A program made the position numbers and the translations under genes. Positions 33,805-58,294 of a stretch of 64,000 bases of DNA are shown piece by piece. The notes under the pieces were generated by a model. It was not told where the DNA came from. It searched no databases and worked only from the letters and a program-made list of their open reading frames with translations. Origin of the DNA: Eunapius fragilis (Eukaryota; Porifera; Demospongiae; Spongillida; Spongillidae); contig OY811977.1 in assembly GCA_963681505.1 (NCBI GenBank), positions 1,381,171-1,445,170 of the forward strand, given 5' to 3'. Position 1 is the first letter of the stretch, and the number at the start of each line of letters is the position of its first letter.

Positions 33805-35205
33805 ATGCTACGAATGAGGCAAACAACACTTGTGGCTGCGCTTGCAGTGCTGTGGGCCAGTACCCAGGTGAGTCTGCTGTGTGTGTGTGTGTGTGTGTGT
33901 GTGTGTGTGTGTGTGTGTGTGTGTGTGTGTGTGTGTGTGTGTGTGTGTGTGTGTGTGTGTGTGTGTGTGTGTGTGTGTGCATGTGTTGTGTGTGACCCCT
34001 ACATTGTAGTGGGGTAATGGGTGTGTGATAGGGTGTATATGTGTGTGTGTGTGTGTGTGTGTGTGTGTGTGTGTGTGTGTGTGTGTGTGTGTGTGTGTGT
34101 GTGTGTGTGTCTGTTTATGTGTACGTGTGTGTGAACATGAGGACTGACAGGAATGTTAACAACTTCTGCATTGCAGGGAGCATATGGGACTTACCAGCCT
34201 ACTGATAAAAAGCTAGGCGTGTCGGACGGCTCAACAAATCCAGCGGCAATCATCACTCCGGGACAGGCCCCTCCCTCAGGGGGTTGCTCCCAGCAGTGTC
34301 CTCCCTTCTCCACCCTCAACACCGGCAGCTGCCAGTGCGTCCCTTGCCCGGTCTCAACCTGCCCTTTCGGACAGACCCTGGACCCCTTGACTTGCGCGTG
34401 CCGCTGTCCCGCGACTACCGCCTGCGCCTACCCGCAAGTGTTCGACGACATCCTCTGTACCTGCCGCTGCTCCAACATTGTGCTGTGCAAAGGGCAGGCC
34501 ACGTTCAACCTGGACACGTGCAAGTGCGAGTGTCCCCTTGTGCAGACGGGGTGCGGCCAAAACCAAGTGCTTGACGCCATCGGCTGCATGTGTCAGACTC
34601 CGCCCACTTCTCCCCAGACTCCCGCCCCCATCAATCCTCCTGCGTTTGTATCGCAGTGTCAGTTCACGGTCTGCAGGGCGGGGCAGAGGTTCAACCCGAC
34701 CACGTGCGCCTGCGAGTGTTCTCCGAGCGCCGCAAGCAGCTGCAACTCCCTCCAGCGGCTCGACCCGAACACCTGCCAGTGTGTGTGCGTGCGGGTGATG
34801 GCGATAGTGGTGGCTCAAGCACAGGTGAGCGCTCCTAGCTTCCCGGTCCAACAGCAATCTATATTGCAGCCTGCGGTCATATCAAGTTCTTCCGGGGGTG
34901 CCGGCACCCGCGGTCCCGGGGGTGCCGGTACCCGCGGTCCCGGGGGTCCAAAAGGTACGAAAGGTCCTGGGCGTAAAGGCAGAAGGAACCTCGACAGCCT
35001 TCTACGAGTTGCAAGGGGTCCCCGTACCAAGCCAAAAACCAAGCCCAAGGTGGCTGCCAAGCCTAGCGTGTCAATCAGCAATCAGTTTGTACAGAGCCCT
35101 CAGGTGGTGCAGAGTCAGGTCCAGTACGCCCAGTCGCAGTCGATTCAGGTGCTCCCGTTCTGCCCTGCTGGACAGATAGCAGATGTGTCTTGCAATTGCC
35201 GCTGA
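33805..35205 (+). CDS. Gene A: secreted C-x10-C-x-C-x-C module protein with collagen-like basic linker, 363 aa
   Basis: Exon 1 33805..33867 encodes the signal peptide (MLRMRQTTLVAALAVLWAS); exon 2 34177..35205 encodes the rest; phase 0. Seven modules with exact C-x10-C-x-C spacing follow (CPFGQTLDPLTCACRC, CAYPQVFDDILCTCRC, CKGQATFNLDTCKCEC, CRAGQRFNPTTCACEC, CNSLQRLDPNTCQCVC and others). Then comes a Gly/Arg/Lys linker (GTRGPGGAGTRGPGGPKG) ending GRKGRR, a possible furin-type cut, and the segment LLRVARGPRTK shared with B and E. A Gln/Val-rich stretch leads to a terminal nine-spaced module CPAGQIADVSCNCR. The spacing is the Balbiani ring 3/VEGF-C C-terminal pattern; no growth-factor domain is present. 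Likely extracellular matrix or secretion product. Function unknown. Confidence 0.85.
33879..34120. repeat. Two long (TG)n tracts filling the intron of gene A
   Basis: About 100 bases (33879-33979) and about 85 bases (34038-34120) of TG occupy most of the 309-base intron. The first begins about ten bases after the donor GTGAGT. Confidence 0.95.
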
Positions 35206-35455
35206 TAAACAGTTATCGTTAATTCGTGTATATATATTTGTATATTCGATATCTTGTGTGATGTGTTTTATATGCATTAAAGTATGAGATACATTTCAGT
35301 TGTTAACCGCAAAGGTTGCAGAGGCATTATGGAATGAAATAGAGGATGAGTTTCCTCCCCTGACCACACATAAAGCCTCCTCCTCTGACCACACACGCAA
35401 ATTTGAGGCGAAGAGAACAAGGAGGACGAAGGGGGGGAAGGGGCCCGAGGGGAGG

Positions 35456-35485
35456 TGGGGGGGGGGGGGGGGGGGGGGGGGGGGG
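35456..35485. repeat. Poly-G tract
   Basis: About 28 G in a row after a purine-rich stretch, 250 bases downstream of gene A. Confidence 0.9.
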
Positions 35486-35590
35486 TTGATGATAAGTTGC
35501 ATGCAGGGTGAGGAGGAGAAGCCAAACAGAGTATTTTGTACCTAATGCTCTCTAATGCTCAGTATGTGGTGCATTTACGATCACGATATC

Positions 35591-35782
35591 ATGGGACAGT
35601 GTCCAGCATATTAACCCTTGTAGGTATTTTTCTTGATTTTCTGTGAATTGTGATGTTCCTCTATCAAATGAAAAATTATCAAAAAGTTGAAGTTACAAGT
35701 CATTAATTTTTTTAAATTTCAACGTAAGCGTTACTTTCCTTTTGCTTACATGCCCTTTAAAATAGATTTTGCTGAACACTTG
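35591..35782. mobile_element. MITE with GGACAGTGTCCAGCA inverted ends
   Basis: The left end is ATGGGACAGTGTCCAGCATA and the right end is TTTTGCTGAACACTTG. The right half (GTAAGCGTTACTTTCCTTTT) recurs near 20120-20190 (GTGAGCGTTACTTTTCTTTT...TTTGCTGGACACTGTCCCAT) and the end motif recurs near 30580-30605. So it is a dispersed small element. Confidence 0.5.
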
Positions 35783-36169
35783 TTTAGCTATAGTGAAAAC
35801 TTGAATTGATTTGTTAATAAATAAATGTTATTAACTTGCTAGAGTGACCGTTTGGCCAATTAATGTTGGATTAGGAAGCAAATGTAATACACAAACTGCT
35901 CTTAGGCTGTAGGTTTGAAGTGTTTCGCTTAGATGCGCAGAAACTGGATGCACGTCAGGACAAAGCATTTGCTCCGACTGAACAGAGTTAAGGGACGTTG
36001 TACAATCATTTGGAATGGATTCCAGCCTCTCAATTCACAATTGCTCACATGCAGCAAAGTAACATCATACATACCACATGTCAGTATAGAAGAATAAACA
36101 ACATCCCTTCATGTATATCAGTATGCAGAATGACGTGTTGTGTATTTATGCATATGATTCAGTGAAATT

Positions 36170-56090: not shown

Positions 56091-56382
56091 TCTAATTTTA
56101 AAAAGTCCTAAATACCTTGCAAACAACTTTACAAAGCACGCGGCACTCGTAGAGAAATCGAAAATACGGTCACAATTTTTGACGAAATTTAGATCTAAAT
56201 TTCGTCACGCAAACATAATTTATTGAAGTAGCAACTAAATTTTGTGAACTTCCTTTCTTTTACTGCTACAGATTTTTAACTCTCCAAATGATTTTTTTTT
56301 CCCGCCTATGCTGTCAGTATATGGATGCCATGCAAAAAAAAAAAAAAAAAAGCATGAAAAAAAAAGGTATTGTAAAAGTGTC

Positions 56383-56935
56383 GGGGCTGGCGGCCGGGTT
56401 GGCCTGCGAGACAACTGTTCAAGTGTTTGTGCGTTATTATAACAGACAGCACAATTAGGTATGTTATGGTTTCGGAAGACTTGTTACGCCCTTTTTTTTT
56501 TTAACGTCCCAAACCAGCCATCGTATTCCATGCGCTTATGGAGTCATTCACACTTTTTGAATGCATGTATAAGTTAATAACTGAAATGCAGTCTAAAAAG
56601 GAAAATTAAAAGGGGGTAACATCGCTTAATGATAAATTAAAAGGCTCGTAATATGTTGCAGCACAAAAGCTCCACTTTTATGTATAGACACAATTATTAT
56701 GCAATAAATTTACGCGACAAACATGTACATGCCGGCATCAGCCGTTCATGCGGCTTGCAACTTCTGTTATTGGCGGCGGGGTTGGCCGGCAAATCATTAT
56801 AGCTTGTACTGACTGATGCACAGATATTTGGGCGTTATTATGAAGTCACAGACGGAACAATTTGATATGTTATGGTTTTAGAAACTAGCTTTGTTGCGCC
56901 TTTTAAAAAAGAATAGTACTTCCCAAGCCAGCGAA
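56383..56935. repeat. Diverged 160-bp direct duplication upstream of gene E
   Basis: Copies at 56383-56520 and 56764-56935 share GGCGG.CGGGTTGGCC near the start, then GCGTTATTATxA, TATGTTATGGTTT and TTGTTRCGCCxTTTT. The second copy ends about 85 bases before the gene E start codon, so the sequence may be regulatory or an old transposon. Confidence 0.5.
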
Positions 56936-56952
56936 AATAATTAAGGCATGAC

Positions 56953-56960
56953 TATATAAA
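56953..56960 (+). promoter_or_regulatory. TATA box of gene E
   Basis: TATATAAA lies 68 bases before the ATG at 57021. Confidence 0.55.
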
Positions 56961-57020
56961 AAAGGCTATATGTGCAAAAATCACAAAAGTAGTTTGACTT
57001 GCCATAAAGCGTACTCAAAG

Positions 57021-58294
57021 ATGCTGAAGGGAGTGTGTACGCTGGCTCTCATCATTTGCCTTGCAATGGTAAGCAGATCTATAGACCCCTTAGCCCCTCC
57101 ATCCTCCTGCACACCTCCCTCCTCCCCTCCCCTTCCCCTGCACCTGATGGTGTCAAGCTGATTAGCAATGCATCTATGTTACTCTGCATTTTTCAGGTTG
57201 CTTCGGCCACCAACAAAAAGTGCGACAAGTGCGCGGAGACAGACATTTCCCTCGTGATACCCGGTTGCCGCCTCGCGTGTCCTAGCAACCAGGTGTTGAA
57301 CGCGCTGACCTGCAGCTGTCAGTGCCTCAATCAGGTCGCGTGCTTCCCGGGTCAATTTTTCGACACCGCTACCTGCCAGTGCAGATGTAACCAACAGACG
57401 GCGTGTCTCGGCGCCCAGATGTTTAACCCTCAGACATGCCAATGCGAATGCCCATACCAAATGCAGTGTTCTCCTAACCAAATATTTAGCCAGGTTAACT
57501 GCCGCTGCGAAACGATTGCCCCGCTTGCCCCGCTCTGCCAGAACTCTTGCCAGCAGCCGCAGCGACTGAACACGCAGACCTGCCAGTGCGAGTGCCCGAC
57601 CGTCATCTCCTGTCCCGCAGGCCAGACCTTCAGCTACACGAGCTGCAGCTGTCAGTCCGTGTGCGGAGCCGTGCAGCAGGTGTGCCCGTTCCCCACGACC
57701 TTCGACTTCACTCGGTGTCAGTGCGCGTGTCCGAACTTAATGTTCGGCCTATCCTCCTGCGGGGCGGGGCAGAGGTTCAACCCGACCACGTGCGCCTGCG
57801 AGTGTTCCCCGAGCGCCGCAAGCAGCTGCAACTCCCTCCAGCAGCTCGACCCTAACACCTGCCAGTGCAAGTGTATGCAGGTGATGGCAATCGTAGGAGC
57901 CCAAGCGGCGCCGCAACTGCTCAACCCGGGCTTCCCCTTCATGTTCCCCCAGCCACTGGTACCTCAGCCTCAAATCATATCGCAAATCGGCTCCTCAAGT
58001 TCCAGTACCCGTAAAGGAACCCGTAAAGGAACCCGTAAGGGAACCCGCGGCCGTAAAGGCAGAGAAGCTGATGCGGAGAAGCTGCTTCGAGTCGCACGAG
58101 GCCCTCGTACCAAGGCCAACACCAAGGCGCGTACCCAGGCTGTTTCCCAGACCACCAGCTATCAATACGTGCAGTCCCAGATGGCGCAACCATACCCAGT
58201 CCAATTCCCGGCCCAGCTCCCTCAGCCTCAGTACCAAATGCTTCAATTCTGCCCTGCTGGACAGGTAGCTGATTCCTTTTGCAACTGTCGTTGA
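57021..58294 (+). CDS. Gene E: secreted C-x10-C-x-C-x-C module protein, 381 aa, close paralog of gene B
   Basis: Exon 1 57021..57068 (MLKGVCTLALIICLAM) and exon 2 57197..58294, phase 0. The signal cut is probably after VASA. It has nine 10-spaced modules, in the same order as modules 2-10 of gene B and nearly identical to them (CFPGQFFDTATCQCRC, CLGAQMFNPQTCQCEC, CSPNQIFSQVNCRC, CQQPQRLNTQTCQCEC, CPFPTTFDFTRCQCAC, CGAGQRFNPTTCACEC, CNSLQQLDPNTCQCKC). Then comes a basic linker with GTRK repeated (STRKGTRKGTRKGTRGRKGR), LLRVARGPRTKANTKARTQ, a Gln/Pro stretch and the terminal CPAGQVADSFCNCR. The N-terminal unit (CDKCAETDISLVIPGC) differs from gene B. Likely an extracellular structural or matrix protein; function unknown. 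Confidence 0.85.

Follow-up and report, generated by a model that had tools for sequence, protein, structure and literature searches.

The stretch of the Eunapius fragilis genome analysed here (the window, 64 kb; positions 1381171-1445170 of contig C7, OY811977.1, one of 24 contigs in a genome of 218,937,333 bases) carries five genes, A, B, C and E on the plus strand and D on the minus strand, whose products are built of short cysteine modules. A strict module was defined as a cysteine, ten residues other than cysteine and then C-x-C, and was counted in all six frames. All 69 strict modules of the window are in frame within the body exons of the five genes (7 in A, 10 in B, 5 in C, 38 in D and 9 in E), and none was found outside these exons in the six frames, which confirms the places and strands that an initial annotation, made from the letters alone, had given to the genes. 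Thirty first-order Markov versions of the window held 4.1 strict modules on average and 8 at most, and a two-module DNA pattern matched the window 8 times versus 0 in 100 shuffles. A looser pattern, in which cysteine is permitted within the ten residues, also matches many GT/CA microsatellite frames, and these extra matches are noise.

Genes A, B, C and E share one build, in which a hydrophobic exon 1 (63, 51, 66 and 48 bp, respectively) with a GT donor is followed by a phase-0 intron, an AG acceptor and a single open exon that runs to the stop codon; the splice sites and signal peptides are predictions by eye and simple rules rather than by a signal-peptide predictor. In gene A, a predicted signal peptide of 21 codons (33805..33867, +; donor CAG/gtgagt, phase 0) precedes a body exon (34177..35205, +) with 7 strict modules, a basic linker containing RKGR, a terminal CPAGQ bead and the stop codon, and the modelled protein has 363 residues. 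Gene B (predicted signal peptide at 38311..38361 and body at 38585..39751, both +; 405 residues) repeats this order with 10 modules and a terminal CPVGQ bead before the stop, and gene E (57021..57068 and 57197..58294, both +; 381 residues) does so with 9 modules and CPAGQ, both having RKGR in the linker. Gene C (predicted signal peptide at 44212..44277 and body at 44501..45292, both +; 285 residues) has a long basic linker and 5 modules, the terminal CPLGQ one counted. The body of gene D is one open exon of 1128 residues (49490..52876, -) with 38 strict modules, 48 beads and a short basic tail containing R-K-G-R, and it has no terminal CP-x-GQ module. Its predicted signal peptide is uncertain: the hydrophobic exon at 53667..53720 (-; phase 0, donor gtaagg) is one of five listed candidates, and an ATG at 52900 is an alternative start. 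The basic linker with a terminal CP-x-GQ module, which the initial annotation had described for the cluster, therefore holds in A, B, C and E and not in D, while its signal peptides followed by modules are supported by eye, with D having a candidate exon 1 only. The Pfam family CXCXC (PF03128; curated cut-off 15 bits) matches the body exons of A, B, C, D and E at 28.9, 51.6, 21.3, 17.5 and 50.2 bits, and no other Pfam family, growth-factor domains included, matches these five exons at E<=10, in agreement with the annotated lack of a growth-factor domain.

Five genes is the correct count for the window, yet the family is chromosome-wide and larger than the description as a five-gene cluster suggests. 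The body exon of E, searched against the whole genome with only the best candidates scored, gave 72 matches among these candidates, 71 on C7 and 1 on C21; many of the matches fall in the same gene, and E itself is counted. Downstream of the window lie E2, a 99% copy of E at C7:1453281, H823, an 823-residue open frame on the minus strand at C7:1475620, and the largest relative, at C7:1492708, whose open frame of 2960 residues holds 102 strict modules; eight gene models, the five of the window among them, thus stand within about 80 kb. Farther along C7 are Q962 (5.85 Mb), P314 (6.83 Mb), P311 (7.11 Mb), P537 (8.61 Mb) and P255 (8.75 Mb), named by the lengths of their open frames; P537 matches CXCXC with an E-value of 2e-85 in 25 stretches. 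The relative on C21 has only two modules. The 13 proteins analysed below are the five of the window and these eight from C7. Left out were a fragment near 8.61 Mb and four short CXCXC frames of 156-157 residues (C7:7238621-7244652 and C7:7311367-7317400), arranged as two pairs that have opposite strands and about 70 kb between them, as if from an inverted duplication.

In the 13 models every body is one open exon, and one upstream intron is predicted for each, with exon 1 of D being a candidate. Ahead of each of the eight bodies that lie beyond the window, a phase-0 acceptor and an exon resembling a signal peptide can be made out; the search covered phase 0 and a reach of 1600 bp, and in five cases the candidate exon stood within about 250 bp. 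The same search from random AG sites found a signal-exon candidate at a rate of 0.41 within 1600 bp and 0.07 within 250 bp, so that eight of eight exceeds chance, yet each single model is weak. Together with the gene models of the window, these upstream exons bear out the idea of a local multigene family with a shared exon structure.

Across the 13 proteins, the cysteines follow a simple rule. We read consecutive cysteines as C0, C1, C2 and C3 of one bead, with at most 150 residues between C0 and C1, a loop of 8-13 residues between C1 and C2 and one residue between C2 and C3, the mature start of each chain being chosen by hand. The rule accounts for 1436 of 1496 cysteines in 359 beads, whereas the same rule on shuffled spacings covered 578 on average and 636 at most in 200 trials. 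Accounting is complete in A (32/32), B (44/44), P537 (104/104) and P311 (40/40); elsewhere the rule leaves over 2 cysteines in E, 2 in E2, 4 in C, 4 in P255, 5 in the largest protein, 8 in H823, 8 in P314, 9 in Q962 and 18 in D. Between one C3 and the next C1 there is exactly one cysteine in 229 of 287 gaps, five in 49 and another number in 9, and the gaps with five fit one cysteine plus a module with a loop of other than ten residues. The most fixed positions among 141 distinct loops are F/L at position 6 (0.80), N/D at position 7 (0.93) and T/S at position 10 (0.79). Bead number ranges widely: A has 8, D 48 and the largest relative 134. The basic linker divides the last bead of A, B and E, whose C0 closes the array and whose C1-C3 stand at the C-terminus. 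From the last full module to the end, lysines plus arginines against aspartates plus glutamates number 18/2 in A, 18/4 in E, 13/4 in B and 34/5 in C. The R-K-G-R of the linkers of A, B and E is, we assume, a minimal convertase motif. The largest protein, H823 and Q962 share a cysteine-rich C-terminal cap, in which the second and third of these show 44% identity each to the first-named and no Pfam family matches above its cut-off; this cap perhaps serves chain linking.

A cysteine content of 8.8-19.4% with many C-x-C steps would also suit secreted metal-binding proteins. We consider that explanation very improbable, because disulfides fit better: the cysteines are accounted for in fours, signal peptides are predicted, the nearest structural match is a disulfide-bonded domain, and cysteine totals are even in 10 of 13 proteins with the hand-chosen starts (those of the largest protein and Q962 are odd, and that of D is odd or even depending on the start). 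Fibroin-type silks, for their part, are glycine-rich with low-complexity repeats; glycine makes up 0.0-8.3% of the 13 proteins, and this class was rejected.

Within genes, the repeats are homogenised. D contains a 312-bp tandem unit in 7.4 copies with 95% matches, P537 a 60-bp unit in 24.9 copies, and the largest gene a 195-bp unit in 29.2 copies and a 324-bp unit in 7.2 copies. Between genes, E and E2 differ by 0.0057 nonsynonymous (dN) and 0.0361 synonymous (dS) substitutions per site (dN/dS 0.16), and a block of their upstream sequence with exon 1 is 80% identical; for E and B, dN is 0.105, dS 0.38 and dN/dS 0.27. The E/B divergence is uneven: within residues 51-250, 6 synonymous changes fall among 189 identical residues, against 13 among 27 at one end and 24 among 87 at the other. 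Between E and A, residues 207-231 are the same, with one synonymous change, although the proteins have otherwise diverged. We read both tracts as probable gene conversion. Near-identical repeats are hard to assemble, and some copies are short or interrupted, such as that at C7:8609350 with one TGA, so pseudogenes or artefacts of repeat expansion in the assembly deserve mention; we give them almost no credence, since frames stay open for up to 2960 residues, dN/dS is well below 1 in the two pairs measured, and exon build and promoter spacing recur across genes.

The same data bear on the possibility that duplication and conversion have diversified a set of adhesins or recognition proteins, directed at microbes or at other sponge cells. 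Repeats of this kind are also present in the mannose-binding protein MBP1 of Acanthamoeba (PMC9692275), and an array of such beads forms the end of the bacterial gliding lipoprotein CglD. Such a role nevertheless appears improbable to us: dN/dS is below 1 in both copy pairs, the repeats have been made alike rather than diverse, and Pfam, run on the five window body exons, brought up neither a lectin nor any other family besides CXCXC.

Upstream of the ATG, at 56-74 bp, a TATA-like motif occurs in 9 of 14 genes (the 13 models and the C21 gene), which are related and therefore not independent cases; the background in the window is 0.165 per 140 bases. From these distances the motif is placed at 33740..33748 (+) for A, 65 bp upstream, at 38253..38261 (+) for B, 58 bp upstream, and at 56953..56961 (+) for E, 68 bp upstream. 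Among the 14 genes scanned, C, D, H823, P314 and the C21 gene lack it at this spacing.

A possible structural model for the bead comes from VEGF-A. In a profile search of the Protein Data Bank with two beads, VEGF-A entries ranked 1-4 of 5 matches, with modest E-values of 0.0063 (1kmx) and 0.0078 (4deq), and a nine-row profile gave a VEGF-A match at 0.025, beside unrelated chains. These matches and the CXCXC hits in all five genes uphold the annotated spacing of the Balbiani ring 3 and VEGF-C tail type. The VEGF-A heparin-binding domain consists of two subdomains, and each of them contains a two-stranded sheet and two disulfides (PMC9856036). For all nine beads modelled, AlphaFold predicts two short strands that form a pair, at low confidence (mean predicted local distance difference test score, pLDDT, 62).

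As the heparin-binding domains of VEGF-A are the nearest solved relatives by sequence profile, the bead arrays could alternatively be matrix-bound regulators, which would attach to sulfated polysaccharide and either sequester other signals or present them, as the tails of VEGF-C and VEGF-A do, without forming bulk material. In VEGF-C, the silk homology domain supplies most of the heparin affinity and determines matrix sequestration (PMC5816233), and A, B, C and E have basic linkers. However, the five window proteins have no growth-factor domain by Pfam, and a PDGF (PF00341) match was absent from the genome search, for which the controls were prokaryotic and the sensitivity in an animal uncalibrated. 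Up to 134 beads with near-identical repeats resemble the building of a filament, and the net charge of the long members is small for their length (-16 over 2926 residues in the largest, +16 over 1117 in D, -8 in the 823-residue protein and +1 in the 962-residue protein). We therefore regard regulators as an unlikely explanation, if the strongest of the alternatives.

On balance, we lean towards reading the genes as a chromosome-linked family from which a freshwater sponge makes secreted structural proteins, acting as matrix, coat or adhesive, and hold this somewhat better than an even bet. Each protein is a chain of small four-cysteine beads, C0-x(few)-C1-x10-C2-x-C3, usually followed after one residue by the next C0. 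On the pattern of the VEGF-A heparin-binding domain, each bead may be closed by two disulfides (C0-C2 and C1-C3) around a single hairpin of two strands, which would give a stiff, protease-resistant string of beads that could be lengthened through added repeats. TATA-type promoters may drive bulk secretion, and the proteins would be secreted, oxidised and then laid down as matrix, coat or glue. In A, B and E, the split last bead would turn the basic linker into a disulfide-closed loop with a proprotein-convertase-like RKGR site; cutting there could expose basic ends that bind anionic polysaccharide or silica, and the split bead would hold the pieces together. The likeness of repeats and paralogues would be maintained by unequal crossing-over and gene conversion. 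The bead rule gives direct predictions for disulfide mapping. Gemmules of E. fragilis have a thickened wall and a common coat (PMC12616128), and disulfide-beaded rods, with length set by repeat number, would be a candidate material in such an animal.

Several other features of the window and genome were recorded in passing. Directly before gene A, a 388-residue frame (31995-33161, +) looks kinase-like by eye and has no Pfam match at 0.01; we presume that it is perhaps POMK-like. An open frame at 5083-5979 (-) encodes a methyltransferase of the NNMT/PNMT/TEMT type (PF01234, E 2.3e-31). Several long frames at 7249-18414 (+) are perhaps one large gene, with a UvrD-helicase match slightly under the cut-off at 10010-13141 (E 2.4e-4) and no Pfam match at 0.01 at 15157-18411; it resembles, we assume, TRANK1. 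A repetitive block at 24572-25637, with minus-strand frames open over long stretches, is probably a non-coding tandem repeat. Elsewhere in the assembly, the best COX1 match lies on contig C24 (28,504 bases) and reads with TGA as tryptophan, and COX1-like pieces with TAG or TAA stops on a nuclear contig (C9:9623639-9676564; L032 and L033) are probably mitochondrial DNA copied into the nucleus.

To our knowledge, the basic linker and split terminal bead have no counterpart among known proteins. All five sponge proteins of the window score above the cut-off of Pfam CXCXC, although that model covers 13 positions and contains neither bead grammar, linker nor gene build. The gliding-motility lipoprotein CglD (NF033765), which we take to be myxobacterial, has a C-terminal array of the same bead type; its model has 1124 positions, and the sponge proteins match the tail alone, at best with 25 bits against a cut-off of 400. 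A full-length CglD (2137 bits), whose tail has four-cysteine beads identical in type to those of the sponge proteins, is present at positions 1375-4965 of BNCN01000002.1, a record named Comamonas sp. that may be mislabelled; the protein also matches the bacterial TSP3 repeat, and a VWA domain falls below its cut-off. MBP1 of Acanthamoeba shares CXCXC repeats and a signal peptide with the sponge proteins, and by description it is set apart as a membrane adhesin with DUF4114 (PMC9692275). Given the bead arrays of CglD and the CXCXC repeats of MBP1, the bead would be older, or would have arisen more than once.

Among the closest known proteins is the Balbiani ring 3 protein (BR3P) of Chironomus, compared here by description rather than letter by letter. 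Like the sponge proteins, it is described as secretory and internally repetitive, with C-x10-C-x-C-x-C repeats, and the sponge genes likewise encode C-x10-C-x-C(-x-C) repeats through much of a protein whose secretion is predicted by eye. The BR3 gene, however, spans 11 kb with 38 introns throughout (PMC4192438), whereas each sponge gene is read with its one intron directly behind the signal-peptide exon and its body in a single exon, about 8.8 kb long at most. Proteins of corals named "balbiani ring 3-like" are VEGFs in the judgement of the study's authors (PMC6385260), and a 2023 survey deemed its 11 sponge hits non-PDGF/VEGF, five of them being BR3P or BR3P-like (PMC10328876). The initial annotation had allowed for a well-described family of the same architecture: the repeat is indeed a named one (CXCXC, BR3P) and sponge BR3P-like proteins are mentioned in that survey, but a sponge family of this build was not found described in the open literature, most subscription papers lying outside the search. 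Thus, the repeat class and sponge BR3P-like proteins are known, and the build and scale reported here were not found described.

A further comparison is with VEGF-C. Its tail has cysteine spacing identical to that of the sponge proteins, and after a convertase cut its halves remain joined by disulfides (PMC5816233), as we propose for the sponge linker. It differs in that VEGF-C and VEGF-D carry a PDGF/VEGF cystine-knot domain before the repeats, which the Pfam scan did not find in the five sponge body exons, and in that VEGF-C has a few beads and the sponge proteins up to 134. The same 2018 review calls the repeat signature unique within vertebrate proteins and its phylogenetic origin unknown. 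Tentatively, and with more doubt than belief, we speculate that in sponges the BR3/VEGF-tail bead serves by itself as a structural "cystine silk", made by a dedicated chromosome-linked family that has members about 3,000 residues long. In the small members, the linker, cut yet held by disulfides, would be the architecture that VEGF-C later uses, and the VEGF-C tail would therefore have come, by capture, from an older matrix protein. With a rich stand-alone family in a sponge, it becomes testable whether the module was a matrix building block before it became the tail of a growth factor.

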